A stretch of DNA of 64,000 bases, taken from Acidobacteriota bacterium (lineage in GTDB: Bacteria > Acidobacteriota > Aminicenantia > Aminicenantales > Saccharicenantaceae). A model generated the notes under the pieces. The model made no database searches. It saw only the letters and a list, made by a program, of their open reading frames with translations, and was not told the origin of the DNA. The stretch spans positions 62,001-126,000 of the forward strand of contig JAQURD010000003.1 of NCBI GenBank assembly GCA_028749115.1. The letters run 5' to 3'. A program made the position numbers and the translations under genes. How positions within the stretch are numbered: the stretch's first letter is position 1; the number at the start of each line of letters is the position of its first letter. Positions 1,781-31,854 of the stretch are shown piece after piece.

Positions 1781-2835
1781 CTTTTCTCCTCCTGATAACA
1801 GCCGAGAAACTTATAGAAAGTTGCTTTCTGCTCAACCTCACACAGAGCTTCTTTGACCCTGTCTTCGGAATCTGAGCCCTGAAAATCAGCCAGAAAAAGG
1901 TAATGCCCCGGATGGAATTTCTGTGGTCTTGATTCTATTCTGGTTAGATTAATCCCGCGGTCTGAAAAGACTTTCAGCATCTCACACAAAGCGCCTGCCT
2001 CATCTTTCAAAGCAAAAATAATGGTGCATTTATTTCCACCTTTGACCTTTTTTTCAAGGGCTAGAACAATAAATCTCGTCCGGTTAGTCCTTTCATCCTG
2101 GATGTTTTCTTTTAAGACCTTAAGGCCATAAAATTTTTCACAATCAGCAGAGGCAATAGCTGCAGCCGCACCAGGTCTCAAAGAGGAAAGCATTTTGGCT
2201 GCTCCAGCCGTGTCATAGAAACTCCTTGGTTCAAATTTGTGACGGCGAAGGAATTCCCGGCACTGAGCCAGAGCCTGTGGATGAGAATAAACGACCCTTA
2301 TTTCCCTGTAGTCCGTTTCCGGCAGGGTTAATAAACAGTGATTGACAGGAAGGCTGACCTCACCCACAATCATTAAATCATTGGCAGCTAACAGGTCGTT
2401 AACCTCACTGACCGAACCTTCAATAGAATTTTCAACAGGGACGATACCGAAATCGAAATTTTTATTTTTTATACCTTCAAAAACTTCTTTAAACTCCTGG
2501 CAGGAAAGCGGAACAAGATCCGGGGCATACTTCCGGGCAGCCAGTTCGCTGTAAGCTCCGTGTTCTCCCTGGAATCCGATTAAAAGGCAGCCCCTGGCCT
2601 GGAGCTGCTTGCTTTCTTCCATAATAGTTTTATACAGGTTTTGAATAAACCCGGCTGAAAGAAGCCTGCCTGAAAACCTCATAATATTGTCTAAAACCTG
2701 CTTTTCTCTCTCCTTATCAGTAACTGATAATTTTTGCCCTCTGGTCCTCAGGCCAAGTTCCATTCTTTCATAGATTAGCTTTAAAATCTCGCCATCAAGA
2801 TGGTCGATTTTATTTCGAATTTCATTCAGGTTCAT
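1777..2835 (-). CDS. pheA: Bifunctional chorismate mutase / prephenate dehydratase (P-protein)
   Basis: A 352-residue protein in three parts: an AroQ chorismate mutase helix bundle (about 1-90, beginning MNLNEIRNKIDHLDGEILKL), prephenate dehydratase (about 93-270, with the catalytic Thr in NRTRFIVLA), and a C-terminal ACT domain with GALCEML and RIESRP, the motifs that bind Phe for feedback inhibition. It converts chorismate to prephenate and on to phenylpyruvate. The start at 2835 has AAAGGAGG 6-7 nt upstream; an in-frame codon at 2859 is less likely. In the leader RNA, CCTTT about 16 nt before the site can pair with AAAGG of this ribosome-binding site, a possible extra translational control. 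It is the first structural gene after a Phe/Tyr leader peptide. Confidence 0.95.
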   Translation of the reverse strand: MNLNEIRNKIDHLDGEILKLIYERMELGLRTRGQKLSVTDKEREKQVLDNIMRFSGRLLSAGFIQNLYKTIMEESKQLQARGCLLIGFQGEHGAYSELAARKYAPDLVPLSCQEFKEVFEGIKNKNFDFGIVPVENSIEGSVSEVNDLLAANDLMIVGEVSLPVNHCLLTLPETDYREIRVVYSHPQALAQCREFLRRHKFEPRSFYDTAGAAKMLSSLRPGAAAAIASADCEKFYGLKVLKENIQDERTNRTRFIVLALEKKVKGGNKCTIIFALKDEAGALCEMLKVFSDRGINLTRIESRPQKFHPGHYLFLADFQGSDSEDRVKEALCEVEQKATFYKFLGCYQEEKR

Positions 2836-2907
2836 TATTCCTCCTTTAAAAACAGACAAAGGTTTCAGAAAAAGTTAAAAATTGGATAAAAGGGTAAGGT
2901 ATTATTC

Positions 2908-2928
2908 TTCAGGCGGCTGGCGCCTGAA
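2908..2928 (-). promoter_or_regulatory. Hairpin at the stop codon of the pheA leader
   Basis: The minus-strand RNA has TTCAGGCG and CGCCTGAA arms (8 perfect pairs, a ninth G-U) around a CCAGC loop. The hairpin starts at the last Phe codon of the leader peptide and includes its stop codon, so a ribosome stalled on aromatic codons would block it. It shares CCAGCCGCC with the hairpin of the aroF leader. It is not followed directly by a U-run, so whether it pauses, terminates or protects is unknown. Confidence 0.7.
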
Positions 2929-2998
2929 AGTAATAGGAGGAAAAGTAGAATACGAGGTGATGGAGACAATCGATATCAATCAAGCTTGCTAATTCCAT
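2909..2998 (-). CDS. Phe/Tyr-rich leader peptide of the pheA-tyrA operon
   Basis: A 29-codon frame, ATG at 2998 and TGA at 2909-2911, lying between a consensus promoter and pheA. Residues 16-24 read VFYFSSYYF: three Phe and three Tyr among nine codons (the full peptide has only these aromatic residues). It ends QAPAA at a stable hairpin. This is the layout of ribosome-mediated attenuators such as the enterobacterial pheA leader. The predicted transcription start falls on or next to the A of the ATG, so translation would begin on a leaderless message; no Shine-Dalgarno sequence is possible. The codon content and position are read directly from sequence. The regulatory role is inferred from those features and from the very similar aroF leader. 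Termination or anti-termination downstream is not resolved. Confidence 0.8.
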   Translation of the reverse strand: MELASLIDIDCLHHLVFYFSSYYFQAPAA

Positions 2999-3006
2999 TG
3001 AAGGCA

Positions 3007-3034
3007 ATTATATCTATTTTTATCTTCTTGTCAA
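3007..3034 (-). promoter_or_regulatory. Consensus promoter for the pheA leader
   Basis: The minus strand carries TTGACA (3029-3034), a 16-base spacer, and TATAAT (3007-3012). Both hexamers are perfect. The start site is expected near 2998-3000, i.e. at the leader-peptide ATG. The -35 box begins only 6 bases from the end of the degenerate repeat at 3041-3105. Confidence 0.85.
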
Positions 3035-18816: not shown

Positions 18817-19605
18817 TCAACTCAGTTGCTCGATAACCTGGTTGGCTTCCTTAATAAATTCCTGAACATTTTCTTTTCCGCCTGAATTAAAAAGATTAAT
18901 TAAATGGCTGCCGATAACAGCCAGATCCACCCGGCTGATTAGACTTCTTATCTGCTCAACCGAGGATATCCCGAAGCCTGCCGCTAGCGGAAGGCCTGCA
19001 TAAGCCTTTACCTGATCAATGAAATCGGCGCTTTTTTTCTCCATTCCTTCCCTGGCCCCGGTGACACCCACCCTGAGCGTGATATAGATAAAACCTTCAG
19101 CTATCTTTAATAACTTCTTCAATCTTGGAAGAGATAGGCCAGCTGACAACACCTGAATCCCGACAAGGTTACACTCTTTAAGCCAAAAATAATAATCATC
19201 ATAACCTCTCTCATCAAAAGGCAGGTCAGGAATGATTAAGCCGCTGACCCCGCAAGCAGCGCTTTCGGAAACAAATCGCTCCAAACCCATGGTGTAAGCC
19301 AGATTGGCATAGGTCATAAAAAGAAGTGGAATTTTAACCTCGTCTCTTATTTCCTCTATCATCTTCAGACAGAGCTTCGGCGTCAGGCCATTTTGAAGAG
19401 CCTTATGATTGGCTGCCATGATAGTTGGCCCGTCAGCTAAGGGATCAGAGAAGGGAATCTGCACCTCGATCATATCAGCCCCGGCTTCAGCCATGGCTAG
19501 TATCAAATTCTGGCTGGTTTCAAGATCTGGATACCCAGCTACTACGTGAGTCATAATCTTCAGCTTTTTTTTCTTAGAAAAAACTTCATCAATCCGGCTG
19601 GCCAT
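18817..19605 (-). CDS. trpA: Tryptophan synthase alpha subunit
   Basis: A 262-residue TIM barrel that releases indole from indole-3-glycerol phosphate. Signature QIPFSDPLADGPTIMAAN includes the catalytic Asp (PFSDPxADG); the catalytic Glu is in the preceding MIEVQIPFSD strand. GLIIPDLPFDERGY and YITLRVGVTGARE complete the active site; the loop has LRVGVTG where many homologues have SRxGVTG. The start overlaps trpB by 17 nt, so the subunits are translationally coupled. Confidence 0.95.
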   Translation of the reverse strand: MASRIDEVFSKKKKLKIMTHVVAGYPDLETSQNLILAMAEAGADMIEVQIPFSDPLADGPTIMAANHKALQNGLTPKLCLKMIEEIRDEVKIPLLFMTYANLAYTMGLERFVSESAACGVSGLIIPDLPFDERGYDDYYFWLKECNLVGIQVLSAGLSLPRLKKLLKIAEGFIYITLRVGVTGAREGMEKKSADFIDQVKAYAGLPLAAGFGISSVEQIRSLISRVDLAVIGSHLINLFNSGGKENVQEFIKEANQVIEQLS

Positions 19606-20866
19606 GGTTGACCTCCTCCTTCAAAAATCTCATCCAGCCTTCGTTATCAAGTTCCTTAGCGGCAATAAACAGATCCTTATCACCCCGGCCTGAGATGTTA
19701 ACAACCATTATTTGCCGTCTGGAAAATTTCCTGGCAATTTTAAGGGCATAAGCCACGGCATGGGCCGATTCGAGGGCGGGTATAATTCCCTCGGCCTGGC
19801 AGAGAGTCTTGAAGGCTGACAGGGCTTCCGTATCTGTCACCTGGTCAAAGCAGATTCTCCCGGCATCATGAAGGTCAGCCAGCTCCGGTCCAAGACCCGC
19901 ATAATCAAGACCGGCACTGATCGAATGGGTGGGCTGCACCTGCCCCTCATGATCCAGGATAAAATAGGATTTATAGCCCTGGACAATACCCTTTCTGGGA
20001 TTTTTCCCAAGCCGCCTGGCATTTTCCCCTCGGCCCGGGCCCCGGCCCCCAGCTTCCACCCCGTAGAGCCTTACATTTTTATCCTTCAAGAAAGGATAGA
20101 AAAGCCCGATGGAGTTAGAACCGCCGCCGACGCAGGCCACCAGGACATCAGGCAGCCTGTTTTCATAAATCTTTATCTGGGCTTTAACTTCCTGGCCAAT
20201 GACCGACTGAAAATCTCTGACCATCAGTGGATAGGGAAAAGGGCCAACGGCTGAACCTAGTAAATAATGCGTGTCCTTCAGATGTTCAATCCAGTATTTT
20301 AAGGCAGCATTGACCGCATCTTTCAGAGTTTTTGTACCGTCTCTCACCGGAACTATCTCTGCTCCCATGGTTTTCATAAAAAAGACGTTGGGATACTGCC
20401 TTTTTATATCAACCTCGCCCATAAATATCCGGCTTCGGAGACCAAACCTCGCCGCGACCGCCGCCGTAGCCAGCCCATGCTGTCCGGCTCCCGTTTCCGC
20501 CACAAGGCAACTCTTACCCATTTTTCTGGCCAGCAAGGCCTGCCCAAGAGCATTGTTTATTTTATGGGCACCGGTCTGGCAGAGCGATTCAAGTTTTAGA
20601 TAAATCTTACATCCTCTACCGAGCCTGGTGAGATTCTCAGCGAAATAGAGAGGTGTTGGGCGGCCAGCATAGTTTTTTCTTAAATTTTCCAGCTCTTTCT
20701 GGAATTCCTGGCTTTCCCGGTAGTGAAAATAAGCCCCGGACAATTCTTCCAGAGCAGGGACGAGCATTTCAGGCACATATCTTCCGCCATAGTCACCAAA
20801 ATAGCGGCTTTCTTCAACCGCTTCTGACCTCTGCTTTCTCTTTTGTTTCATTTTTGACCTCGCCAT
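19589..20866 (-). CDS. trpB: Tryptophan synthase beta subunit
   Basis: A 425-residue PLP enzyme joining indole and serine. RYFGDYGGRYVPEMLVPAL opens the conserved part after a basic 20-residue N-terminal tail. The PLP lysine is in TGAHKINNALGQALLA; GAGQHGLATAAVAA, CVGGGSNSIGLF and NISGRGDKDLF are typical. The stretch before the lysine reads LKLESLCQTGAHK; the usual LKREDLxHTGAHK has lost its Arg, Asp and His, though the catalytic Glu is kept. It overlaps trpF by 19 nt. Confidence 0.95.
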   Translation of the reverse strand: MARSKMKQKRKQRSEAVEESRYFGDYGGRYVPEMLVPALEELSGAYFHYRESQEFQKELENLRKNYAGRPTPLYFAENLTRLGRGCKIYLKLESLCQTGAHKINNALGQALLARKMGKSCLVAETGAGQHGLATAAVAARFGLRSRIFMGEVDIKRQYPNVFFMKTMGAEIVPVRDGTKTLKDAVNAALKYWIEHLKDTHYLLGSAVGPFPYPLMVRDFQSVIGQEVKAQIKIYENRLPDVLVACVGGGSNSIGLFYPFLKDKNVRLYGVEAGGRGPGRGENARRLGKNPRKGIVQGYKSYFILDHEGQVQPTHSISAGLDYAGLGPELADLHDAGRICFDQVTDTEALSAFKTLCQAEGIIPALESAHAVAYALKIARKFSRRQIMVVNISGRGDKDLFIAAKELDNEGWMRFLKEEVNHGQPD

Positions 20867-21471
20867 TTTTCGACCTCTCTTAAAAAGTTTATCATTTTAG
20901 TAGGATTTTTCTTACCAGGAGATTCTTCCAGAGAGCTACAAACATCAACACCAAAAGGCTTCATCTTAATGATTTCTCCGATATTTAAATCAGACAGGCC
21001 ACCAGCCACCACAATTTTCTTCCCGGTTTTTAAAGCTTCTCTTAAAAGCGACCTGGCGAGCTGCTTTCCTGTTCCGCCGTAGGCCACTCCGGAAAATGAA
21101 TCAAGGAGAAAGATGTCACCCGGGAATTTTTTTAGCTTCTCCACATCCGAGGTATCCTTAGCCCTGATAGCTTTCCAGTAAGGAAGACCTAACTGGCGGC
21201 AGAAATCTGGCCCCTCATCTCCCTGGAGCTGGACAATATCCAGCCCGACGTAGTCATAAATCTCCCTGATTATTGACACCTGTTCATTTACAAATACCCC
21301 AACTTTAATGGCCGAATATTTCGTTTGTCTGACCAGCTTTCGGGCCAGTTCTGGTTCTAGAAAACGCGGCGAGTTCTTATAGAATATAAATCCAGCATAA
21401 TCAGCCCCCAGTTGACAGGCCAGTTTATAATCAGCCAGGTTAGTTAGGCCGCAGATTTTAACCTTAACCAT
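20848..21471 (-). CDS. trpF: Phosphoribosylanthranilate isomerase
   Basis: A 207-residue TIM barrel that performs the Amadori rearrangement of phosphoribosylanthranilate. It starts MVKVKICGLTNLADYKLA with catalytic Cys7; LLDSFSGVAYGGTGKQL holds the general-acid Asp, and VVAGGLSDLNIGEII plus GVDVCSSLEESPGKK bind the phosphate. Overlaps both trpC (8 nt) and trpB, a fully coupled trp segment. Confidence 0.95.
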   Translation of the reverse strand: MVKVKICGLTNLADYKLACQLGADYAGFIFYKNSPRFLEPELARKLVRQTKYSAIKVGVFVNEQVSIIREIYDYVGLDIVQLQGDEGPDFCRQLGLPYWKAIRAKDTSDVEKLKKFPGDIFLLDSFSGVAYGGTGKQLARSLLREALKTGKKIVVAGGLSDLNIGEIIKMKPFGVDVCSSLEESPGKKNPTKMINFLREVEKWRGQK

Positions 21472-22231
21472 TCATAAGCTCCCTGATCGCTCCGGCTACA
21501 TCTTTTTGCCTTAAAAGATACTCACCGATTAAAGCCCCCGAAAAACCTTCTTTCTTTAATATACTGATTTGCTCCGGGGAATTGATTCCAGATTCACTGA
21601 TGAGACTAATTCCCGGCGGGAAGTATTTTTTCAGGCGCAAAGATGTTCCGAAGTCCACCTGAAATGTTTGGAGATTACGGTTATTAATACCAATAATTGA
21701 TGGCTCTAGCTTAAGTGCTTTTTCCACATCTTCCTCGTTATGGACTTCCACCAGAACCTGCATCTTCAGAGCTAAGGAAGTCTCATACATCGTTTTTAAA
21801 TTCTCCTTTGACAGGCAGGCCGCAATTAACAGAATAAAATCGGCTCCCAGATTATATGATTCATAGACCTGATAGGGGTGAACCAGAAAGTCCTTGCGCA
21901 GGACTGGAATCTGCACTTTATCCTTGACTCGACTCAGGTATTCTTTTCGTCCGGAAAAAAAGTTTTTCTCGGTAACAACCGAAATGGCTGAAGCACCTGC
22001 TCTCTGATAACTCAAAGCCAGCTCGACCGGGTCTAAGTCCTCTTTAATCAGTCCTTTTGAGGGCGAACTCTTTTTAACCTCAGTTATTAAGCTGAACTGC
22101 TGTTTGAGGCATTTCAAAATATCAAGCGGCTTGTCCCTTTCTTTTAAAGAAAAGCTGCCCGGGGAAAAGGAACGGAAATTGGCCTCTTCGTCTCTATTTA
22201 TGCTGGCAATTATTTTATCCAGAATGTTCAT
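21464..22231 (-). CDS. trpC: Indole-3-glycerol phosphate synthase
   Basis: A 255-residue TIM barrel. SLITEVKKSSPSKGLIKED contains the catalytic lysine and SPS motif; PVLRKDFLVHPYQVYES and IIGINNRNLQTFQVD are diagnostic; SLISESGINSPEQI and GALIGEYLLR bind phosphate. It closes the indole ring from CdRP. The start overlaps the trpGD stop by 4 nt. Confidence 0.95.
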   Translation of the reverse strand: MNILDKIIASINRDEEANFRSFSPGSFSLKERDKPLDILKCLKQQFSLITEVKKSSPSKGLIKEDLDPVELALSYQRAGASAISVVTEKNFFSGRKEYLSRVKDKVQIPVLRKDFLVHPYQVYESYNLGADFILLIAACLSKENLKTMYETSLALKMQVLVEVHNEEDVEKALKLEPSIIGINNRNLQTFQVDFGTSLRLKKYFPPGISLISESGINSPEQISILKKEGFSGALIGEYLLRQKDVAGAIRELMNG

Positions 22232-23826
22232 AGACTCTCCCGGTTAGAAAACATGATTAGCTCATCCAGTTTTTGTCTGGCTTTTCCTGAGTCAATCGAA
22301 TTGGCAGCCAGATCAAGTGCTTCTTTATAGCTCGAAGCAACTTCTGAAACATAGATAGCAGCCGCCGCATTAAGCAACACCGCCTCCCTCTTAGGACCCT
22401 TACTGCCTTCAAGAATGGACAGCACAATTTCACAATTGGTTTTTAAATCTCCACCCTTAAGACTTTCTGGCCGGCAGCAGGAAAAACCAAAATCCTGAGG
22501 GTTGAAGATAGAGTTTTTTAGCCAGCCATTATTTATCTCAATAATTTTGGTTGGGCCGGTTAAGGTAATTTCATCCAGGCCATCCTGGCCATGAACAACC
22601 ATTGCTCTCCTGGTACCAAGAGCCAGGAGCGACCTGGCCATTTTTTCCATAATATCTTCACTGAAGACACCTATGATCTGACAGTCTGCCCCAGCCGGGT
22701 TAGCCAATGGTCCCAGAATGTTAAAAACTGTCCTGATACCTATTTCGACCCGCACAGGCAATGCATGCTTCATTGACTGATTTAGCTTTGGAGCAAAAAG
22801 AAAAGCGATACCAATTTCATTCAAAGCTTTTTCCATAACTTCATGAGAAGCAGCAATATTTACTCCCAGGGCTTCCAATAGGTCAGCACTGCCGCAGCGT
22901 GAAGTTACTGAGCGGTTGCCATGTTTGGCCACCGTCACGCCGGCCCCAGCGGCAACAAGAGCGGCCGCCGTGGAGATATTAAAAGTGCCTTTAGCATCAC
23001 CGCCTGTTCCACAGGTATCAACCACCAGTTTGCCTTCCGGCCTTGAAATCCTGGTAGCTCTTCTCCTCATCACCCTGGCCAGTCCGGTTAGCTCAGAGAC
23101 TGCTTCTCCCTTGCTCCCCAGAGCCGTCAGAAAAGAGGCTATTTGTGAGGCAGTAGCTTTCCCCGAGGTTATTTCAGTCATAACCTTTTCCGCCTCATTC
23201 TCATCCAGGTCAATACCCCGGTAGATCTTGCCAATGGCTGCCTGGATAATTGATGGATTTGGTCTGGGGCTTAAAAAGTTAGCCAGAAGCTCTAGGCCGG
23301 ATTCTGTCCCGATTGATTCGGGATGAAACTGCACTCCCTCCAGGCTGTAGAGTTTGTGCCTGACCCCCATAATATCTCCTTCTTCTGTCCAGGCTGAAAT
23401 TTCCAGCTCCTCTGGAAGAGAAGTTTTTTTGATGACTAATGAGTGATATCTTATCGCCCGAAAGGGATTTTTTATTCCACTGAATATCCCGTTTCCGTCA
23501 TGATAGATATCGGATGGTTTGCCATGATAGAGGGCAGGCGCTCTGACTATCTCTCCTCCAAGCGCCTGGCCAATACACTGATGGCCAAGGCAGACACCAA
23601 AGATGGGTATCTTGCCTTTGAACTGCCGGATAATTTCCAGACTTATTCCCGCCCCCTCCGGCCTGCCTGGCCCGGGTGAAATAACAATATGAGAAGGTTG
23701 GAGTTCGTTGATGTCTTCAATCGTCAGGGCATTATTTCTTCTGACCGTAATTTCATGGCCCAGTTTCCTGACATATTGAAAAATATTGTAGGTAAAGGAA
23801 TCAAAGTTATCAATTAAAAGGATCAT
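22228..23826 (-). CDS. trpGD: Fused anthranilate synthase glutaminase / anthranilate phosphoribosyltransferase (TrpG-TrpD)
   Basis: A 532-residue bifunctional protein. Residues 1-~190 are the class I glutaminase: MILLIDNFDSFTYNIFQYV, nucleophile Cys in GVCLGHQCIGQALGG (about 78), catalytic His and Glu in GVQFHPESIGTE. Residues ~200-530 are TrpD: CGTGGDAKGTFNIST binds phosphoribosyl pyrophosphate and AKHGNRSVTSRCGSADLLEA binds anthranilate. It supplies ammonia to TrpE and then transfers phosphoribose to anthranilate. The same fusion is known in enteric bacteria. GGAGG lies 4-5 nt before ATG 23826; the frame extends upstream to 23853 without a better start. Confidence 0.94.
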   Translation of the reverse strand: MILLIDNFDSFTYNIFQYVRKLGHEITVRRNNALTIEDINELQPSHIVISPGPGRPEGAGISLEIIRQFKGKIPIFGVCLGHQCIGQALGGEIVRAPALYHGKPSDIYHDGNGIFSGIKNPFRAIRYHSLVIKKTSLPEELEISAWTEEGDIMGVRHKLYSLEGVQFHPESIGTESGLELLANFLSPRPNPSIIQAAIGKIYRGIDLDENEAEKVMTEITSGKATASQIASFLTALGSKGEAVSELTGLARVMRRRATRISRPEGKLVVDTCGTGGDAKGTFNISTAAALVAAGAGVTVAKHGNRSVTSRCGSADLLEALGVNIAASHEVMEKALNEIGIAFLFAPKLNQSMKHALPVRVEIGIRTVFNILGPLANPAGADCQIIGVFSEDIMEKMARSLLALGTRRAMVVHGQDGLDEITLTGPTKIIEINNGWLKNSIFNPQDFGFSCCRPESLKGGDLKTNCEIVLSILEGSKGPKREAVLLNAAAAIYVSEVASSYKEALDLAANSIDSGKARQKLDELIMFSNRESL

Positions 23827-23842
23827 CGTTTCCTCCTTGCCT

Positions 23843-25303
23843 TCAGTCTGCATCTTCCAGCGTTTTGAAAAGAGCGGCTGCTTTATTTATAGTTTCTTCA
23901 TATTCTTTTTCAGCCACCGAATCAGCTACAATACCGGCACCAGCCTGAATAGTAGCCTGACCATCCTTAAGCAGAATTGTCCTGATGGTGATACAGGAGT
24001 CAAAATTGCCATTAAATCCTAGATAAAAAACCATCCCTCCATAAGGTCCTCTTTTTGACCTCTCCATTTCACTGATTATTTCCATCGCCCTAATTTTGGG
24101 AGCACCGGTCAAAGTGCCGGCTGGAAAGGTAGCCTTAATAACATCAAAGACATCAAAGTTTTCATCGAGCTCAGCCTTGACGGTCGAAACAAGATGCATA
24201 ACATGGGAGTACTTCTCGACACTCATAAAATCATTAACCTCAACGCTTCCTAGCCTGGCCACCCGGCCCAGGTCATTTCGGGCCAGATCAACCAGCATGA
24301 TATGCTCGGCTCTTTCCTTGGGATCGGCCAGAAGGCTACTCGCCAGTTGATGATCTTCCGCGAGAGAAGCCCCTCTTTTTCTGGTGCCGGCAATAGGTCT
24401 GGTTAGAAGTTCTCTGTTCTGAACTCTAACCATCACTTCCGGTGATGAACCAATAAGTGAAAAACTATCAAAATCCAGAAAGAAAAGATAAGGAGAGGGA
24501 TTGATGACTCTTAACTTTTGATAGATTTCAAAGGGAGAAGACTCTGTCCTGGCAGTAAACTTCTGGGAAACGACCACCTGAATAATTTCACCCTGGCTGA
24601 TATATTCCTGACAGCAGCTGACACGTTTTAAAAATTCCTCCTTCTCCATGTCAGGCTTGATAAGAACTTTCGTGTGCTTTTCCTTTTTTTCTTTTAAGTT
24701 CAGCGGGCGGGAGAGAAGAGTCAGGATGTCTTCAATTCTGGCCAGTGCCCTTTCATATTCTTTAAGAGGAGTTTCTCCGGGTGAAGTGGTAACAATGACA
24801 AAAAGAGACCTTTTAACAGAATCGTAGATTAGAAGTACCTCTGGAATGACCATAAGACCATCAGGAATTCCTGTTCCATCATTTAGAACAGGAATATCCT
24901 CAAAATAGCTGGCCGTCTCATAGCCTAAATAACCGATGGCCCCGCCGTAAAAAGTAGGCAGGCTTTCATAAGCAGGTGCTTTCCAGCCCGAAAAATATTT
25001 TCTAACAGCTTCAAGTGGATTTTTGAGTCTTTCCTTGAAAACAATGACGGGCTGGCTGGCTCTGTTTTCAACAATTTCAACTGACTGGCCATTCAGACTG
25101 ATAGTGCTTTTTCTGCCTAGCCCGACAATGGAAAAACGACCGACATTTTCTCCCCGCTCAATGGATTCGAGGAGAAATTTAGCTCCGGTCTTATGAAAAA
25201 TAGACAGTGGAGTTTCAAAATCAGCCATGACTTCCTTAAAGACAGGAATGATGGTGTAAGATTTAGCTTCAGCTAAATATTGTTCCTTTGATGGAAAAAC
25301 CAT
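23843..25303 (-). CDS. trpE: Anthranilate synthase component I
   Basis: A 486-residue chorismate-utilising enzyme. FLLESIERGENVGRFSIVG holds the LLES motif that binds inhibitory Trp. The catalytic part includes GEIIQVVVSQKF, PSPYLFFLDF, GSSPEVMVRV, RPIAGTRKRG, LVDLARNDLGRV and FPAGTLTGAPKIRAMEII. It converts chorismate to anthranilate with ammonia from the TrpG half of the next gene, 16 nt downstream. Retention of LLES implies enzyme-level feedback in addition to the leader control upstream of aroF. Confidence 0.95.
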   Translation of the reverse strand: MVFPSKEQYLAEAKSYTIIPVFKEVMADFETPLSIFHKTGAKFLLESIERGENVGRFSIVGLGRKSTISLNGQSVEIVENRASQPVIVFKERLKNPLEAVRKYFSGWKAPAYESLPTFYGGAIGYLGYETASYFEDIPVLNDGTGIPDGLMVIPEVLLIYDSVKRSLFVIVTTSPGETPLKEYERALARIEDILTLLSRPLNLKEKKEKHTKVLIKPDMEKEEFLKRVSCCQEYISQGEIIQVVVSQKFTARTESSPFEIYQKLRVINPSPYLFFLDFDSFSLIGSSPEVMVRVQNRELLTRPIAGTRKRGASLAEDHQLASSLLADPKERAEHIMLVDLARNDLGRVARLGSVEVNDFMSVEKYSHVMHLVSTVKAELDENFDVFDVIKATFPAGTLTGAPKIRAMEIISEMERSKRGPYGGMVFYLGFNGNFDSCITIRTILLKDGQATIQAGAGIVADSVAEKEYEETINKAAALFKTLEDAD

Positions 25304-25314
25304 TTTATCCCCCT

Positions 25315-26298
25315 TTAAACTAATTGACTTTTTCGAAGAAGTAGCAAATCAGCCAGAACAATGGCTACGGCAGCTTCGACGATGACCGGAATTCTCAGAG
25401 CGATACAGACGTCATGCCTGCCTTTGATTTCCAGATATTCCCGGCGGCCTGTTTTCAGATTAAAAGTCAACTGTGGTCGGGGAATACTGGCCGTAGGTTT
25501 AACTGCCAGCCGGAAGACAAGCGGATTGCCATTGGTCAGACCGCCATTTATGCCGCCAGCCCGGTTAGTGGCCGTCCCCCCGTCCCGGCTAATTATTAAA
25601 TCGTTATGTTCGCTTCCCTTCATACTGGCCGAAGCAAAGCCAGCCCCAAATTCAATGGCCTTCACAGCGGGAATCGAAAAAACCAGGTGAGAAATAAGCG
25701 ACTCAACTGAGTCAAAAAAAGGCTCACCCAGGCTGGCCGGGACTCTGTTAGCCTGGCATTCAATTATTCCGCCGATTGAGTCCCTCTCTTTGACTGCCTG
25801 GTCAACAGCTTTTTGAATGTTTTTCTCTCCGCCAGCCTCAATAAGCCTGGCTCTGATGGCGGCAGGCCTGATGATTTTTTTAGCAACGACTCCAGCCGCT
25901 ACCAGCCCGACTGTCAGCCTCCCGGAAAAATGGCCTCCACCACGGAAATCATTGAAGCCATAAAATTTCTGACTGGCGGTCAGATCAGCCTGACCCGGCC
26001 TGGGTATATCTTTAAAAATTTCATAATCCTCACTTCTCATTTCTTGGTTGCTAAATTCCAAACAGAGTGGTGCCCCGGTTGTTTTCCCATTAAAATGCCC
26101 GCTTCTAATTTGAACGGTATCAGCTTCGACCCGACTGGTGGTGCCAGCCTTACCACCTTTCCGCCTGGCCAGGTCTTTCTGAAAGTCGGCCGGCTTTAGA
26201 GGTAAGCCAGGAGGACAACCATCAATCAGTATGCCAGCAATCTTCCCATGAGATTCTCCATAAATATGAACCCGGAACAAGCGGCCAAAACTATTCAT
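25315..26298 (-). CDS. aroC: Chorismate synthase
   Basis: A 327-residue flavin-dependent enzyme. Start 26298 (MNSFGRLFRVHIYGESHGKI) has GGAGG and overlaps the aroA stop; upstream in-frame codons would extend it 20 residues into aroA. GESHG, RRKGGKAGTTSRVEAD, RPGQADLTASQKF and FRGGGHFSGRLTVG are diagnostic, and the C-terminal RHDVCIALRIPVIVEA carries an active-site His. It makes chorismate from EPSP and needs reduced FMN. It ends the shikimate part and precedes trpE by 11 nt. Confidence 0.95.
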   Translation of the reverse strand: MNSFGRLFRVHIYGESHGKIAGILIDGCPPGLPLKPADFQKDLARRKGGKAGTTSRVEADTVQIRSGHFNGKTTGAPLCLEFSNQEMRSEDYEIFKDIPRPGQADLTASQKFYGFNDFRGGGHFSGRLTVGLVAAGVVAKKIIRPAAIRARLIEAGGEKNIQKAVDQAVKERDSIGGIIECQANRVPASLGEPFFDSVESLISHLVFSIPAVKAIEFGAGFASASMKGSEHNDLIISRDGGTATNRAGGINGGLTNGNPLVFRLAVKPTASIPRPQLTFNLKTGRREYLEIKGRHDVCIALRIPVIVEAAVAIVLADLLLLRKSQLV

Positions 26299-27559
26299 CG
26301 ACTTTACCTCCAATTTTCCTGAAATCATCGAAAAAGTTTGGATAGGATTTAGAGACACAGGCCGGGTCTTTTATCAAAATCTTTCCATCAGCTATGATGC
26401 CCGCTACAGCTGCGGCTATGGCCATTCTGTGATCATGATGAGGATCGACAATTCCAGAAGATAAATGACTCCGGCGAATTTCCATCCAGTCGCCATTAAT
26501 AGAAATATCTGCCCCAAGTTTGGAGAATTCTTCAGACAGGACTTTAGCCCGGTGGCTTTCTTTATGGGACAGCCGGCTTACGCCTTTAATTCTGGTCAGC
26601 CCCTCGCAGGCACAGGCCAGGACGGCCAGCGGTGGAAAAAGATCCGGGCAATCAGTAGCATCAAAGGTAAACGCCTTGAGGGCAGAATTTTCAACCTTGA
26701 TTCTTTTTGAATTCTCTTTGTCTTCTCTATCGCCAGCTTCACCTGGAGAGCTATCAATACTCACATAAGCTCCGCAGGCCTCAAGAGCTTCCAGAATTTT
26801 TCTGTCACCCTGGCAGGAATCCAGATCCAGACCACCAACAGTCACGCTGCCTCCAACTGCACCGGCTACCAGCAAAAAGGCGGCCGCACTCCAGTCGCCC
26901 TCTATTCTGTATTCCCTCGCCTGAAATTTTTGCTCGCCCCTGATGTAAAATCTCCGGTAATTTTCATTAACGATAGAAATTCCAAAATCACTGCTTACTT
27001 TCAAGGTGATATCTATATAGGCTTTGCTTTTTAAGCTTTCGACTTCAAGGACAGAATCTCCCTTGGCGCAAGGCAAGGCCAGCAGCAAACCGGTTAGAAA
27101 CTGAGAAGTGGTGGAGCCATCAACCATCGCCTTTCCTCCCCGAAGTGGACCTTTAAGCCTTAAAGGGGGATAGCCGGCCTGGCTCTCACATTGAACACCA
27201 AGTGTCTGAAGCGGCTTTTCCATCATCCCGACCGGACGTCTCAACAAGGTGCCACTGCCAGTAAGGATGATTTCTTGAGGGGTGAGGGAAGCTAAGGCCG
27301 GAAACATCCGCAGGCAAAGTCCCGATTCTCCACAGTTCAACTCTCTCTTGACAGGCTTTATTCCTCCTTTTATTTTTAGACGGTCACCCTCCTTCCAGAT
27401 TTTTGCTCCGAGGTCTTGAGCTATTCTCAGGGAAGCTAAGGAGTCATCACAGAAAGAAGGATTAATAATTTCAGTTATGCCAGCTGAAAGAAGAGCCGCT
27501 GCGACAACTCTTTGCATAAAACTTTTGGAAGGTGGAGCTGCCACCGTTCCGCTAATCAT
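26291..27559 (-). CDS. aroA: EPSP synthase (3-phosphoshikimate 1-carboxyvinyltransferase)
   Basis: A 422-residue two-domain enzyme. MISGTVAAPPSKSFMQRVV includes the PEP/shikimate-binding PPSKSxxQR; CGESGLCLRMFPALASL, VDGSTTSQFLTGLLLALP, DATDCPDLFPPLAVLA and SHKESHRAKVLSEEF are all in expected order. HHDHRMAIAAAVAGI near the end completes it. GGGGAGG precedes ATG 27559, which overlaps the aroEK stop by 8 nt. No glyphosate-class statement is attempted. Confidence 0.95.
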   Translation of the reverse strand: MISGTVAAPPSKSFMQRVVAAALLSAGITEIINPSFCDDSLASLRIAQDLGAKIWKEGDRLKIKGGIKPVKRELNCGESGLCLRMFPALASLTPQEIILTGSGTLLRRPVGMMEKPLQTLGVQCESQAGYPPLRLKGPLRGGKAMVDGSTTSQFLTGLLLALPCAKGDSVLEVESLKSKAYIDITLKVSSDFGISIVNENYRRFYIRGEQKFQAREYRIEGDWSAAAFLLVAGAVGGSVTVGGLDLDSCQGDRKILEALEACGAYVSIDSSPGEAGDREDKENSKRIKVENSALKAFTFDATDCPDLFPPLAVLACACEGLTRIKGVSRLSHKESHRAKVLSEEFSKLGADISINGDWMEIRRSHLSSGIVDPHHDHRMAIAAAVAGIIADGKILIKDPACVSKSYPNFFDDFRKIGGKVDE

Positions 27560-28931
27560 TGAACACCTCCCCAACTTCGCTCTCTATTTTGTCTGTCACT
27601 TCTTCCAGGCTCTTCTCGCTATTAACCATCAGATCAGCCGTAGTAAAATAGAGCTCTTTTCTTGTTTCATAGAGATTTTCAATTTCCTGCTGATTGCCTT
27701 TATCCAATAAAGGTCTTTTTGTTCCGCTGGCTCTTTTAAGACATGTTTTGAGAGTCGAATACAAAAAAATGACAGTCGAATTTTCCTTAAGAATCTGACG
27801 GCTCTCTTCATCCATAATGGCCCCGGCTCCAGGTGAGAAAACAGCTCCTCTCTCGGCAGCCAATTTTCTGATGGTCACCTTTTCCTCAGCTCTGAAATAA
27901 GCTTCACCTTTTTTATTAAATATCTCCTCTATGCTCATTTTTTCCCTGCTCTCAATCAGTCTGTCGGTATCAATGAATTTCGAACCCATTTTTAAAGCCA
28001 GTCTTTCTCCAATAGAAGTCTTACCACTGCCCATAAACCCGACGAGTGTAATATTTCTCCTTTTCTTTGTGGTATCATCCTGATCAAAAAAAGAAGAAAA
28101 ATTAGAAAGGACTTGTACCGCTGACGTCTGGCCGATAGGAGCTGGCTGCCTGCCTGAATCATGTGATCTAAAAGTTCCCGGCTCCACCTGTCCCCCCTTT
28201 TGCTGACTGAAAAAAATCTCCCGGGCCCCTACCGCCTGATGGTAGAGCCACTCTTCCCCACTAATAACCTGACAACCAGCAGATGCGGCCAGCGGTAAGA
28301 TGACAGGTTGTTTATAATTGGCTTCAAGGACAACCTGATCCTTTTTCAGCCAGTTCTTTTTTATAAATCCTTCCCCAGAAGTTATAGCTGAAATGATAAT
28401 CTCAGCTTCTCTTATAATGGCTGCCAAAGAATCTGGTTCCGCCGCCTGGCAGCCCAGAGACGCAGCTAATTTTCTTGCCTTTTCTGCGGTTCTATTGACA
28501 ATCGTTACTTCTGCCCCTTTCTGGATTAGGCCAAAAGCCGCCGATGCCCCGGCCCCACCTGCTCCGATGACCAAACATTTTTTCCCGGCTAGTTGAATAT
28601 TCCTTCTCTCCAGAGCCATAACGACTCCGGCTGGATCAGTGTTAAACCCTTTAATTCCATCTTTCCATTTGATAATGGTATTCACGCTGCCCGTAGCCAG
28701 AGCCACTTCATCAAGTTCTGAAAGATAGGAAATAATCTCGGTTTTAAAAGGGGCAGTAATATTCATGCCATCAAAGCTAAAAGAATTAAAAATAAAAATT
28801 ATTTCACCGGCTGAATCGGCCGCTACCCGCCCATAGGCAGCTTCCATAGGAAAATTTCTAAAAAAATGTTTAAAGATGCGAGGGCTTTTACTATGGAGAA
28901 TGGGCGAGCCAGCGACGGCAAAAAACTTCAT
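27552..28931 (-). CDS. Fused shikimate dehydrogenase / shikimate kinase (AroE-AroK)
   Basis: A 459-residue fusion. Residues 1-~245 are AroE: AGSPILHSKSPRIFKHF, catalytic Lys in MNITAPFKTEI, GFNTDPAGVV, NADP site VIGAGGAGASAAFGL and EEWLYHQAVGAREIF. A ~40-residue Gly/Ser/Gln-rich linker follows. Residues ~295-459 are AroK: P-loop LVGFMGSGKTSIGERLA, DTDRLIE and AEEKVTIRKLA. It reduces 3-dehydroshikimate and then phosphorylates shikimate, two consecutive steps on one chain. I know of few bacterial AroE-AroK fusions, so domain order and linker are worth noting. Confidence 0.93.
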   Translation of the reverse strand: MKFFAVAGSPILHSKSPRIFKHFFRNFPMEAAYGRVAADSAGEIIFIFNSFSFDGMNITAPFKTEIISYLSELDEVALATGSVNTIIKWKDGIKGFNTDPAGVVMALERRNIQLAGKKCLVIGAGGAGASAAFGLIQKGAEVTIVNRTAEKARKLAASLGCQAAEPDSLAAIIREAEIIISAITSGEGFIKKNWLKKDQVVLEANYKQPVILPLAASAGCQVISGEEWLYHQAVGAREIFFSQQKGGQVEPGTFRSHDSGRQPAPIGQTSAVQVLSNFSSFFDQDDTTKKRRNITLVGFMGSGKTSIGERLALKMGSKFIDTDRLIESREKMSIEEIFNKKGEAYFRAEEKVTIRKLAAERGAVFSPGAGAIMDEESRQILKENSTVIFLYSTLKTCLKRASGTKRPLLDKGNQQEIENLYETRKELYFTTADLMVNSEKSLEEVTDKIESEVGEVFND

Positions 28932-29599
28932 TTCTTACTTCTCCTCCGTTTCTCCCTCAAAAAACCCAGGATTGCCTCGAGGCTTTTTTTATCAAGTTGA
29001 CCTTCCGCTGTTTCACTGCCTGGTTTAAAGGAAGCGTAGGTGAAGGGTGCCCCAAGCAAAGGAGCAGCCACTCTGGTAATCTTCCCTTTCTCCCCCATTC
29101 CTAAAGAAATAATTTTTCCGGCCGCCGCTTCATCAAGGCCATAAAGAGAAAGAAGAGCAATAATATCCTGATTGGAATTAACCTGGCAGGCTATCTTGGC
29201 AATATCCGCTCCCTCACGGAAACATTTCTTAACCATTCTGTTGAGTTCTATGGCCGGAGGTGATTCTTGATAGTTGTGGTAGGAGAGAATGACCAGGCAT
29301 CCTTTCTCGCGGGCCTGGCTGATAACGTCCTGTTTAAAAGCTGCCGGTGATTCGATTTCTAAATCAACATATTTTGCCCCGCAGCAGATAGCTTCAAGCA
29401 AATACTGCTTTCTGTTTTCTTCAGACATAGAGCCTGGACGACAGGTAACAATTAAGTTCAGGGGCAAGGAAAAAAGTTGTTTAATTTCGTCCAGAGTCAA
29501 GCTGGCTTTGTCCAGTCTGAGTTCCGCCAGATCAAGACCTTTTAATTTTTTTAGACTGTCTGAAACATTTGAAACTTCAAGACTCACACAGATCATCAA
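28928..29599 (-). CDS. aroD: 3-dehydroquinate dehydratase, type I
   Basis: A 223-residue class I dehydroquinase. LAELRLDKASL is the substrate-binding start, CRPGSMSEENRKQYLLEAI follows, the Schiff-base lysine is in ADIAKIACQVNSNQD and the catalytic His in VILSYHNYQESP. GEKGKITRVAAPLLGAPFTY closes the barrel. It dehydrates 3-dehydroquinate. Overlaps aroEK by 4 nt and aroB by 23 nt. Confidence 0.93.
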   Translation of the reverse strand: MMICVSLEVSNVSDSLKKLKGLDLAELRLDKASLTLDEIKQLFSLPLNLIVTCRPGSMSEENRKQYLLEAICCGAKYVDLEIESPAAFKQDVISQAREKGCLVILSYHNYQESPPAIELNRMVKKCFREGADIAKIACQVNSNQDIIALLSLYGLDEAAAGKIISLGMGEKGKITRVAAPLLGAPFTYASFKPGSETAEGQLDKKSLEAILGFLREKRRRSKK

Positions 29600-30626
29600 T
29601 AGCTTCCTCCACTTCTGAAAACGATAGTCTCTCTACTGAGGCTTCACCTATCGACTTTAAAAGGACAAAATCAATCATCTGACCGGACTTCTTTTTGTCC
29701 TGACGTACCGGTTCAACAATTCTATCCCGCTTATCGCAGTCAACTTTCATCGAGATGGGTAAATTAAACTTTTGAAGAAGCTTCCTGATTCTTGAAGCTT
29801 CGGCCTCTGCTAACATATTTTTTTTAACCGAAAGATTAGCAGCCAGGATCATTCCCAGACTCACCGCCTCTCCATGAGTAATCCGATAGGCCTTTTCCAG
29901 GGCATGGGCAAAAGTATGGCCAAAATTAAGCTTTTTCCTCTGCCCCATGTCCTTTTCATCCAGAGAGACAATAGCCGTTTTTATTCTGACGGTCTCGTCA
30001 ACAATTCTTCTCAATAGATCGTTATCGAGCCTGAGAGCCCGCTCTGATTCTTTTTCCAGCAATTCGAAAAGGTCACGACTGGTGATCGCCGCACATTTAA
30101 TGATTTCTGAAAAGCCATTGACCAGCTCTTTCGCCGGTAGAGTTTTCAGGAATGAAAAATCAATCAGGACAAAATCTGGTTGATTGACCACCCCGATCAT
30201 ATTTTTATAGCCATCTAGATTGACGCCGTTTTTCCCACCAATGGCCGCATCAACCTGGGCCAGAAGGGTGGTGGGTACAAAACCAAACCTGAGTCCCCTC
30301 ATAAAGGTTGAAGCAACAAAGCCAGTAATATCGCTAACCACACCGCCGCCAATTCCCAGAATGAAGGTAGATCTGTCTGCAGAGACACGCAGCAGTTGTC
30401 TATAGATTGATTCAACGGTGAGCAGAGTTTTCGTGCCCTCGCCAGATTGGAGAATGATAACATCTCCGGCCGGTGTGAAAAGCTGGCTGTAGAGACGGTT
30501 AACATTATCATCAGTAATGATGATTATTTCCTGGCCTGCAAGATAAGCTGAAAGTTGACTCATAGACTCATCAATAAGGATCTGGCATCTTCCAGTTTCA
30601 CCGCAAAAATCAATTTTTTGACTCAT
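29577..30626 (-). CDS. aroB: 3-dehydroquinate synthase
   Basis: A 349-residue NAD- and metal-dependent enzyme. GIGGGVVSDITGFVASTFMR, the PTTLLAQVDAAIGGKNGVN segment, and metal ligands in NFGHTFAHALEK and ITHGEAVSLGM are typical. It cyclises DAHP to dehydroquinate. Four nt separate it from aroF. Its C-terminal part overlaps the aroD start. Confidence 0.95.
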   Translation of the reverse strand: MSQKIDFCGETGRCQILIDESMSQLSAYLAGQEIIIITDDNVNRLYSQLFTPAGDVIILQSGEGTKTLLTVESIYRQLLRVSADRSTFILGIGGGVVSDITGFVASTFMRGLRFGFVPTTLLAQVDAAIGGKNGVNLDGYKNMIGVVNQPDFVLIDFSFLKTLPAKELVNGFSEIIKCAAITSRDLFELLEKESERALRLDNDLLRRIVDETVRIKTAIVSLDEKDMGQRKKLNFGHTFAHALEKAYRITHGEAVSLGMILAANLSVKKNMLAEAEASRIRKLLQKFNLPISMKVDCDKRDRIVEPVRQDKKKSGQMIDFVLLKSIGEASVERLSFSEVEEAIDDLCES

Positions 30627-30629
30627 AGT

Positions 30630-31460
30630 TCAGCTCACAGAATTCAAAGAATTAGTCACATAATTTCTCAGAGCCAGGATCTTTTTAGCTGCTCTCGTAA
30701 ACATCTCGGGCGTCAGGGTCTGCTCCCTGTCGCTTAAAGCCTCAGCCGGGTTATAATGAACTTCAATCATCAGCCCATCAGCGCCGACGGCTACGGCCGC
30801 TAAACTCATTGGTTCGACCAGGCTCTGTCTCCCTGTGGCGTGCGAAGGGTCAACAATCACGGGCAGGTGACTTACCTCTTTAACCGACGGCACAATACTC
30901 AGGTCAAGAGTGTTTCGAGTATAAGTCTCAAAAGTTCTTATTCCCCGCTCGCAAAGAATGACATTAAGATTGCCTTCAGCCAGAATATATTCAGCACAAT
31001 CCAGCCATTCAGCCATGGTCGAGTTCATCCCTCTCTTGAGCAGGACAGGTTTTCCAATTTTCCCCACTTCCTTAAGCAGAGAAAAATTCTGCATGTTTCG
31101 CGCTCCAATCTGAAGGACATCAGCAAATTCGCTGACCCAGCCGGCATCGCGTGTATCAATAACTTCAGTCACCACCGGTAGGCCTGTTTCTTCTCTGGCT
31201 TTAGCCAGAATCTTAAGTCCCTTAATTCCCAGCCCCTGGAAAGAGTAAGGAGAAGTTCGAGGTTTAAAAGCACCACCTCTTAACATATTGGCTCCGGCTT
31301 CTTTGACCGCCATGGCGGTTAGAATAGTCTGTTTCTCACTCTCCACACTGCAGGGACCGGCAATCAGGGCAAAATCCTTTCCGACCTCAATGCCGGAAAC
31401 ATTGACTGTTGTTCGTTTCTGGCCGCTGCTTTCCAGTGAATATAATTTAGCTCTGGTCAT
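30630..31460 (-). CDS. aroF: DAHP synthase, type I-beta, without regulatory domain
   Basis: A 276-residue enzyme that condenses PEP and erythrose 4-phosphate, the entry to the pathway. [76 protein letters not shown] and [10 protein letters not shown] are diagnostic of the KDO8P-synthase-like (I-beta) class. Members with feedback control usually carry an extra ferredoxin-like N-terminal domain (Thermotoga type, ~338 residues); here the catalytic part starts within about 25 residues. Control may therefore rest on the aromatic leader upstream. GGGAG precedes the ATG. First gene of the 13-gene aro-trp-cysK operon. Confidence 0.94.
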
Positions 31461-31492
31461 TTTTTCTCTCCCTGATACAAGCTAATTGAAGA

Positions 31493-31534
31493 CTACCATG
31501 TGGTTATAAACGAGTTTGATAATTTGCATGACAT
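31493..31534 (-). CDS. Possible 13-residue mini-ORF before aroF ending in Trp
   Basis: ATG 31534 follows a strong GGGAGG and opens MSCKLSNSFITTW before TAG at 31493-31495. A second ATG four bases later opens MQIIKLVYNHMVVFN in another frame. Either could be a second, ribosome-loading leader; the strong ribosome-binding site with no long frame is the only evidence. Confidence 0.3.
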   Translation of the reverse strand: MSCKLSNSFITTW

Positions 31535-31558
31535 ACTTCCTCCCTTGGCAGCCTGACT

Positions 31559-31586
31559 AAAAAGGCCGGCAACAAAATAGACCTTT
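31559..31586 (-). terminator. Terminator-like stem between the aroF leader peptide and aroF
   Basis: Minus-strand AAAGGTC (31580-31586) and GGCCTTT (31561-31567) pair over 7 bp (one G-U) around a 12-base loop and end in a five-T run. It is the best candidate for the attenuator's terminator, but it is weak. Confidence 0.45.
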
Positions 31587-31621
31587 ACTGAGAAATAGAG
31601 AAAAATGGGGAGATTATAGAC

Positions 31622-31711
31622 TTATAGGGCGGCTGGGACCGCCCAGAAATAAAAACAGAAAGAAGACAAAGCTACAGGTTGAACACTGAGCCGTCTTTTT
31701 TCCTGGTTCAT
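31622..31711 (-). CDS. Phe/Tyr/Trp leader peptide of the aro-trp operon
   Basis: A 29-codon frame from ATG 31711 to TAA 31622-31624. Residues 18-23 read FCFYFW: three Phe, one Tyr and one Trp in six codons, with no other aromatic residue in the peptide. It ends AVPAAL across a GC-rich hairpin. It stands between a consensus promoter and aroF, whose operon makes the precursors of all three aromatic amino acids and tryptophan itself. The predicted transcription start is within about 3 nt of the ATG, so the mRNA would be leaderless. Length (29 codons) and hairpin core CCAGCCGCC match the pheA leader. The sequence facts are direct; attenuation is inferred. Confidence 0.82.
   Translation of the reverse strand: MNQEKRRLSVQPVALSSFCFYFWAVPAAL
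31627..31644 (-). promoter_or_regulatory. Hairpin following the aromatic codons in the aroF leader
   Basis: GGGCGG-TCCCAG-CCGCCC on the minus strand, a perfect 6-bp GC stem. Its 5' arm overlaps the Trp codon (TGG-GCG-G), so a ribosome waiting at that codon would prevent it from forming. Confidence 0.7.
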
Positions 31712-31718
31712 GCTGAAC

Positions 31719-31747
31719 TTTATAGCAAACCTTCTGGCAGTTGTCAA
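31719..31747 (-). promoter_or_regulatory. Promoter of the aro-trp operon
   Basis: Minus-strand TTGACA (31742-31747), 17-base spacer, TATAAA (31719-31724). The start site is expected at 31711-31714, at the leader-peptide ATG. Confidence 0.8.
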
Positions 31748-31854
31748 GAATATTTTTTAAAATTGTTATTTACAGTTGAAAAGTAAACTGCATATACTGT
31801 TCCTTAGCCTCCTAATTAAAAAATCCTCCTTATCATCTCAGATGGCTTTAGTAC

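Follow-up and report, generated by a model that had tools for sequence, protein, structure and literature searches.

A leader peptide with a run of phenylalanine, tyrosine and tryptophan codons is predicted to control a whole aro-trp operon in Aminicenantia

We propose that the aro-trp operon in the window, the 64-kb stretch of DNA analysed here, is controlled as a whole by one ribosome-read leader that would sense charged tRNA-Phe, tRNA-Tyr and tRNA-Trp jointly, and we put the probability of this reading at roughly 0.7. A preliminary description of the DNA had suggested a single leader for Phe, Tyr and Trp ahead of these genes, and this suggestion was borne out by conservation of the aromatic run and by Trp codons that track the trp genes. 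The leader element and the operon are laid out as follows.

31742..31747, minus strand: -35 element TTGACA; no other -35 on this strand in 31440-31800 has a matching -10 at 9/12 or better
31719..31724, minus strand: -10 element TATAAA, 17-nt spacer, 7 nt upstream of the ATG at 31711
31622..31711, minus strand: leader ORF MNQEKRRLSVQPVALSSFCFYFWAVPAAL, 29 codons, ATG at 31711, TAA at 31624-31622
31643..31660, minus strand: putative sensor run FCFYFW, residues 18-23 of the leader
31627..31644, minus strand: hairpin GGGCGG[UCCCAG]CCGCCC, perfect 6 bp, first base inside the UGG Trp codon
31567..31626, minus strand: 60-nt post-hairpin tract, candidate Rho loading region, C 13, G 7
31612-31601, minus strand: CTCCCCATTTTT, inside the 60-nt tract
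31562..31585, minus strand: weak hairpin (-4.5 kcal/mol) followed by a short T run, absent from relatives
31493..31534, minus strand: second short ORF, 13 codons, own Shine-Dalgarno, between leader and aroF
30630..31460, minus strand: aroF, DAHP synthase, catalytic domain only (Pfam)
18817..30626, minus strand: aroB-aroD-aroEK-aroA-aroC-trpE-trpGD-trpC-trpF-trpB-trpA (Pfam)

The 29-codon leader with FCFYFW agrees in coordinates and translation with the preliminary description, as does the GC hairpin whose arm overlaps the Trp codon, since the stem (31644-31627) opens inside UGG; the 3' end of this hairpin lies 2 nt ahead of the leader stop codon. Two spacings of one and the same -35 element pass the 9/12 cut-off in 31440-31800, and a stock scanner overlooked the promoter because it demands T at the last -10 position. 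The ATG is too near the promoter to leave space for a ribosome binding site, and the leader ORF is therefore predicted to be leaderless. No promoter was detected between the leader and aroF, the interval (31620-31461) in which a transcription start had been named as refuting the proposal. Downstream, Pfam confirmed the gene order aroF-B-D-EK-A-C-trpE-GD-C-F-B-A, with trpB called from the general PALP family together with its position, and saw the catalytic domain alone in AroF, which had been described as lacking a feedback domain. A second DAHP synthase was considered and rejected, as the genome contains one type I match and no type II match.

A second short ORF is found between the C-rich tract and aroF in five loci that are among the closest (the window, L002, L003, L004 and L119), and in four of the five it stops at most 5 bases from the matched aroF start, possibly reflecting translational coupling with aroF. 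The idea that these ORFs are remnants of a feedback domain was dropped, as the two compared with Pfam (L002, L004) matched nothing there, even at E up to 1.

No known RNA element was recognised at the leader. Rfam returned no matches in the window at gathering thresholds, for T-box or other curated covariance models, which speaks against a T-box or another known RNA leader there; among 12 further loci, the sole matches were an other-strand T-box about 240 nt upstream of the leader of L111 and a tRNA in L039. The folded leader RNA as a whole is no more structured than usual (z -0.66), and the evidence is therefore comparative. T-rich DNA yields Phe-rich short ORFs, and 6 of 177 control stretches also scored in the broad scan of other phyla given below, so that a chance or non-regulatory hydrophobic small ORF has to be weighed. 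We find this hardly credible, given 15 related loci, covariation in the hairpin, the match between Trp codons and products, and a low frequency in shuffled DNA: when the 300-nt upstream region was dinucleotide-shuffled 3000 times, 0.67% of the shuffles contained an ORF that starts with ATG and has five or more aromatics among 7 residues, and 0.2% contained one with Phe, Tyr and Trp all present. When both strands of the 64 kb were scanned for a promoter, an ATG within 3-14 nt and a short ORF, five matches were obtained, and a strong stop-straddling hairpin was present in only two of them, the aroF leader and a sibling leader upstream of pheA; no third such leader was found in the window.

Conservation was followed in 142 genomes of the class Aminicenantia, 30 of which contain AroF at E <= 1e-60. 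The close AroF loci number 32 (L001-L014, L031-L038 and L119-L128), and 16 distant matches (L015-L030, 32-38% identical) lay outside the leader scan. Fifteen of the 32 have the layout of the window and are called class II here (L001-L010, L031, L032, L034, L037 and L119). An exact TTGACA is present in all 15 loci, as is an ATG 4-14 nt past the -10 element. All 15 leaders also carry an aromatic run near the end of the peptide, the run being one criterion by which these loci were picked, and the remaining peptide is unconserved; examples are FYYFYFWAVPAAQ, FFYFWAVPAA, FYFRYWAVPSAR, SSYFYFWA, LYYSYLYYGR, FHLFSFNFGR, SYFYYGRF and FAYYYGRL. The expected conservation of the run in orthologues, for which an alignment of aroF upstream regions had been recommended, was thus seen in 15/15 class II loci. 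Most statistics omit L032, which hardly differs from L006.

A hairpin of 6-12 bp is found at the leader stop in 14 of the 15 class II loci. It starts at or beside the final aromatic codon, and the stop codon is located within the loop or the 3' arm or at most 2 nt behind the hairpin. The arms, which were aligned by hand, covary: each 5' arm pairs better with its own 3' arm than with swapped ones (permutation P = 0.00004; six pairs, 13 non-redundant loci), although class II loci share ancestry and P values therefore overstate independence. The exchanges are T-A/C-G, G-C/A-T and G-C/T-A, with G-C/C-G/T-A at a seventh pair. L009 (G050) is the sole class II leader without a stop hairpin; there, GGCCGGCCTCT near the end of the leader pairs over 11 nt with a downstream AGAGGCCGGTC, which 0 of 300 shuffles equalled.

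The remaining 17 close loci are of several kinds. L011 has a leader of another type. In eight loci (L012-L014, L038 and L125-L128) the AroF frames are longer and no class II layout adjoins aroF, the upstream DNA of L125 being short. Six core-length AroFs have no such leader despite enough upstream DNA (L033, L036, L120 and L122-L124), L120 offering TTG-started candidates only. L035 has 56 nt of upstream sequence, and L121 is not assignable.

The codons of the leaders follow the products of the genes behind them, most clearly for Trp. Trp codons are present in all seven leaders with downstream trp genes (L001, L002, L004, L006, L031, L032 and L119) and in none of the five without them (L007, L008, L010, L034 and the related L011; Fisher P = 0.0013). 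L003, L005, L009 and L037 were excluded from this table because contig ends cut their operons. Addition of four Trp-free pheA-tyrA leaders gave P = 9e-5, under the same caveat of shared ancestry, and a P value of 6e-6 that takes in four trp-operon leaders (L154-L157) is biased because a Trp-weighted search found those four. These comparisons imply that the leader very probably senses the amino acids made by its operon, and they leave its reading as a sensor of aromatic amino acids well supported.

A search for TrpE in 18 genomes found it in 10. TrpE was not detected in G028, G044, G037, G038 or G053, whose leaders are Trp-free, nor in G056, G050 and G068, although the leaders of these three have Trp, which counts against the match. 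The latter genomes are 82-86% complete, and contig ends cut all three operons; Trp lies in the run in G056 (L003) and directly before YYYF in G050 (L009), and trpD sequence is present in the operon of G068 (L032). L037 is Trp-free, and its genome has another aro operon, that one with trp. In L006 and L032 the run is SSYFYFW, and the trp genes are ordered differently and belong to another branch (trpE identity of 40% for the L006 operon versus 57-60% in the window's group). The recurrence of Trp codons beside trp genes of another order and branch suggests repeated joint acquisition of codon and genes.

The match of codons to products is looser for Phe and Tyr than for Trp. L007, the only Phe-only class II leader, is in a genome with prephenate dehydratase and with no TyrA or TrpE detected; the absence of TyrA in G028 is a soft result, because in G019 and G056 tblastn detected a TyrA that escaped PF02153. 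L011 is nearly all Tyr, and the second gene of its operon is tyrA. Phe codons are kept in L008 and L010, in whose genomes no prephenate dehydratase was detected, and neither PDT nor PDH_N was detected in G091, whose leader (L031) has Phe and Tyr.

The sibling leader in the window has the following features.

3007..3034, minus strand: promoter TTGACA-16-TATAAT, 12/12
2909..2998, minus strand: sibling leader MELASLIDIDCLHHLVFYFSSYYFQAPAA, ATG at 2998, upstream of pheA-tyrA
2950-2927, minus strand: run FYFSSYYF, Trp absent
2907..2929, minus strand: hairpin TTTCAGGCG[CCAGC]CGCCTGAAG, 9 bp, stop codon inside
1001..2835, minus strand: pheA (chorismate mutase-prephenate dehydratase-ACT) and tyrA, with Phe and Tyr as products

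Six further pheA loci were fetched, three with a leader (L166, L167 and L168) and three without (L163, L164 and L165). The pheA leaders of G042, G019 and G056 are Trp-free, and Trp is present in the aro leaders of the same genomes. Such natural variants (Trp present or absent with the trp genes, a Phe-only leader and Trp-free pheA-tyrA siblings) make the sensor logic directly testable. Leaders upstream of trpE were also found in G066, G003, G004 and G014 (L154-L157), with Trp/Tyr-rich runs (YWYYWYWY) or FWW. In L154-L156 a terminator, GACCCAC...GTGGGTC with a T run, was judged by eye. This would be a second, classical type of attenuator, and three of the four leaders are in the window's own genus.

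The reading of the leader by the ribosome would work as follows. A ribosome short of any one of the three charged tRNAs would stall within the run and hold the 5' arm of the hairpin open, and an unstarved ribosome would get to the stop codon and depart, upon which the hairpin would close. With less confidence, we infer an off state in which Rho terminates transcription in the C-rich, G-poor tract ahead of aroF translation; starvation for any single aromatic amino acid would then let RNA polymerase read through.

A classical terminator/antiterminator switch that includes the GC hairpin was not supported, and on this point the attenuator of the preliminary description weakens: neither a strong intrinsic terminator nor a shared antiterminator was found. 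A trp-type attenuator, in which stalling would free the 3' arm as antiterminator and an intrinsic terminator before aroF would otherwise form, has several points in its favor: the weak hairpin before a T run in the window, the strong terminators that accompany aromatic-run leaders in other lineages, and the terminators seen by eye in related trp operons (L154-L156). The position of the hairpin, which resembles that of the 1:2 pause hairpin in the trp leader, also counts for this alternative. Nevertheless, an intrinsic terminator of <= -10 kcal/mol was found in 0/15 class II loci, the detector returning nothing in 11 and weak hairpins (-0.5 to -5.2 kcal/mol) in 4. The detector works elsewhere: used identically on the 20 named-set leaders (upstream of AroF relatives in named genomes, below), it found a hairpin of <= -10 kcal/mol before a T run in 17, one of them 260 nt off (L051). 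Moreover, the 3' arm has no downstream partner beyond shuffles in 14/15 class II loci, L009 being the exception, and its pairing with downstream sequence, own versus swapped, is borderline at P = 0.049 with base composition uncontrolled. We therefore rejected a terminator with a 2:3/3:4 switch for Aminicenantia and regard the trp-type alternative as unlikely for the window. Alternative pairing between the 5' leader region and the tract was not clear-cut: own versus swapped gave P = 0.001, but shuffles matched for composition, with a longer downstream stretch, gave a combined P of 0.05 (single loci: L004, 0.037; L031, 0.023).

Control could instead be exerted on translation, with the pyrimidine-rich tract masking the Shine-Dalgarno behind it unless ribosome stalling refolds the RNA. 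Base composition fits such pairing, being C/U-rich in the tract and purine-rich in the Shine-Dalgarnos, and L002 reaches P = 0.05. Across loci, sequestration of the Shine-Dalgarno by the tract did not hold up: own versus permuted pairing gave P = 0.34 (14 loci), and Shine-Dalgarno accessibility was not below that of shuffles (combined P = 0.13, 18 leaders). We hold translational attenuation to be distinctly unlikely for the aroF leader. Upstream of pheA, in L166 (1900-1980) and L167 (1820-1900), GGTTTCCTT, which directly follows the leader stop, is complementary to AAGGAAACC at the pheA Shine-Dalgarno; this 8-9-bp pairing across the ribosome binding site (each with P about 0.01), which counts in favor of the translational alternative, suggests control of pheA at translation in these two loci.

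Rho-dependent termination, our best guess for the off state, is preferred on the combined grounds of the C-rich, G-poor tract, a rho gene in the genome (PF07497, 115.7 bits, G000:C27) and the lack of a strong intrinsic terminator. Over the 60 nt behind the hairpin, C outnumbers G in 15/15 class II loci. C minus G is higher there than in 90 intergenic controls (P = 2e-7) and than in 19 named-set aromatic-run leaders (P = 1e-6); L049 was omitted from the latter because it resembled class II (no terminator, C minus G of 8), an omission that favors the Rho reading. The window's own excess (6) is ordinary, being equalled or passed by 18% of 60-nt windows. The C-rich tract also lies outside what we take to be the footprint of a ribosome stalled in the run, which counts against the Rho step.

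A further alternative is a TnaC-like arrest of the nascent peptide by free aromatic amino acids and not by shortage of charged tRNA. Arrest peptides need specific residues, and the peptides considered here differ strongly among loci outside the run; in addition, induction by end product would be senseless for a biosynthetic operon. A Rho-type tract without an intrinsic terminator is shared with tna, as far as the passages on it in PMC1262725 go, and speaks for this mechanism, which we judge highly improbable on balance. Sensing of charged tRNAs by a translating ribosome remains the preferred reading.

The preliminary description had also proposed that the leader replaces allosteric DAHP synthases, a claim that stood in part. 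The possible AroF start codons lie at most 11 codons before the matched core in 15/15 class II loci; no start lies further upstream, and therefore none of the 15 AroFs has the 67-residue feedback (FL, ferredoxin-like) domain. Against replacement, six further core-length AroFs of the class show no such leader, and leader and FL domain occur together in L143, L086, L111 and L118. Because leaders also precede feedback-domain DAHP synthases, leader and domain are not mutually exclusive. In G003 and G004, which belong to the window's genus, the AroF frames are longer (356-358 aa), and trpE, itself behind leaders such as MCKWLKDIEMTHLYWYYWYWYAQRVGR, is found 5-6 kb upstream of aroF on that strand.

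Similar leaders were sought beyond the class in the named set, which comprises the best 80 of at least 586 AroF relatives in named genomes; 78 were scanned, L047 (the same as L034) and L069 (short) being omitted. Short ORFs that begin with ATG and have five or more aromatics among 7 residues were found in 21/78, compared with 0.48 expected from shuffles. One of the 21 (L109) resembles a longer hydrophobic protein and was left out, giving 20 leaders, whose hosts include Clostridia, an Acidobacteria MAG, Gemmatimonadota, Spirochaetia and deltaproteobacterial MAGs. Phe, Tyr and Trp all occur inside the run, as delimited by us, in 9 of the 20. In the Acidobacteria MAG (L044, 1980-2176), the leader MMSEIRKNGGQFYFWFYFYFN has the run QFYFWFYFYFN and, by eye, an apparent full antiterminator (GGCTGTCTGC/GCAGACAGCC) and a terminator, as in a classical attenuator, with the three residues in one run. 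Six Clostridia loci (L086, L111, L112, L118, L061 and L091) have long aromatic-run leaders (for example, QFYFSFYFNWGFYF) before DAHP synthases. Each of these six has a strong terminator-like hairpin, and a ferredoxin-like domain was present in the three checked (L086, L111 and L118); no Rfam family matched the leader in the four scanned (L086, L111, L118 and L061).

Four of the 20 named-set leaders are labelled as archaeal (L040, L043, L045 and L051), two from Micrarchaeota and two from an "archaeon". The archaeal operon, aroF-B-D-EK-A-C-pheA, lies behind short ORFs with W/F/Y runs, with trp genes immediately upstream in 3 of the 4 named loci, and the AroF of L040 is 71% identical to the window AroF over the matched segment. 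As to the labels, the ribosomal protein S8e was detected in 3 of the 4 archaea-labelled genomes, and in G142 the operon is on a 577-kb contig that carries, about 22 kb away, a threonyl-tRNA synthetase with an archaea-specific editing domain. From the class of G142, a sample of 196 genomes contained AroF at E <= 1e-60 in 40, and the 30 best loci were fetched (L177-L206). An aromatic-run short ORF lies upstream in 23/30 of these AroF loci, compared with 1.6 expected from shuffles and 0/29 in downstream control stretches; one of the 23 (L187) is far upstream and little like the others. Trp is present in 19 of the 23 leaders, and Phe, Tyr and Trp are all present in 18. Among 24 archaeal loci examined, 19 have a run of at least 5 T within 80 nt past the stop and most have a hairpin of at least 7 bp, both counts standing without a chance control; the T runs are T5-T7, often behind a hairpin. 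We regard these archaeal leaders as candidates for ribosome-mediated attenuation.

It is a tentative though real possibility that multi-aromatic leader peptides are a major, largely undescribed form of shikimate control that crosses domains, with one sensor wired to differing outputs. The sensor would act through intrinsic terminators in several phyla of bacteria, through a Rho-type tract in Aminicenantia and through a U-run in or beside a hairpin in Micrarchaeota. If this is true, the archaeal branch would represent amino-acid-responsive, ribosome-mediated attenuation in archaea, possibly brought over with the operon, and the extension across domains, if confirmed, would be more than a variant of known attenuation. 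The survey beyond the class suggests that leaders of this kind have gone unnoticed in many phyla, perhaps in archaea too.

In the literature, neither a leader reading all three aromatic amino acids nor an archaeal amino-acid leader appeared in open-licence PMC titles and abstract starts, among the matches listed, and neither "aromatic" nor "phenylalanine" turned up in a term search of the main text of PMC2965389. According to a general statement in PMC10219788, archaeal genes are regulated by uORFs as well. The statement in the preliminary description that no described attenuator has all three aromatic residues is uncontradicted by the literature found, but such runs are frequent in genomes (9/20 and 18/23 of the leaders above).

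The primary study of the AroR leader of Corynebacterium glutamicum is reportedly that of Neshat et al. 2014. The passages on AroR in PMC4046766 and PMC11802643 describe a Phe-Tyr-Phe run upstream of aroF (cg1129) and a response to Phe limitation and not to Tyr. Like AroR, the window leader has an aromatic run before a DAHP synthase gene; unlike AroR, for which those passages mention no Trp, its run reads Trp too and heads an aro-trp operon. This likeness is one of aromatic run and gene position. In the enterobacterial trp and pheA leaders, the hairpin overlaps the sensor codons, and a terminator/antiterminator switch is present. The codons of these leaders fit the product, as stated in the part of PMC11802643 that treats them, and the window leader is like them in that its codons fit the operon products; each of them reads one amino acid, whereas the window leader would read three. 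For Acholeplasma, the uORFC-13-1 motif is presented in the relevant part of PMC8632094 as predicted uORF control of aroF, with a run containing at least one Phe, and attenuation of E. coli aroF is likewise hypothesised there. As described in that part, uORFC-13-1 differs from the window leader in having Phe only, an RBS and an adjoining intrinsic terminator, and in belonging to another lineage.

Terminator-free leader peptides are represented by the cys leaders of Mycobacterium, for which Rho-dependent control has been proposed and for which the passages concerned report unconserved pyrimidine motifs and no conserved terminator-like hairpin (PMC1262725); those leaders sense Cys, and the window leader is predicted to sense aromatics. 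E. coli tnaC is described in the same passages as having Rho-dependent termination past its leader peptide (PMC1262725), and free Trp is reported to induce via nascent-peptide arrest; the tna operon is catabolic, whereas the window operon is biosynthetic. The missing terminator of the window leader hints at a different read-out, and a leader for three amino acids would illustrate a way for cells to adjust the trunk of a branched pathway through ribosome stalling for whichever product is scarce.
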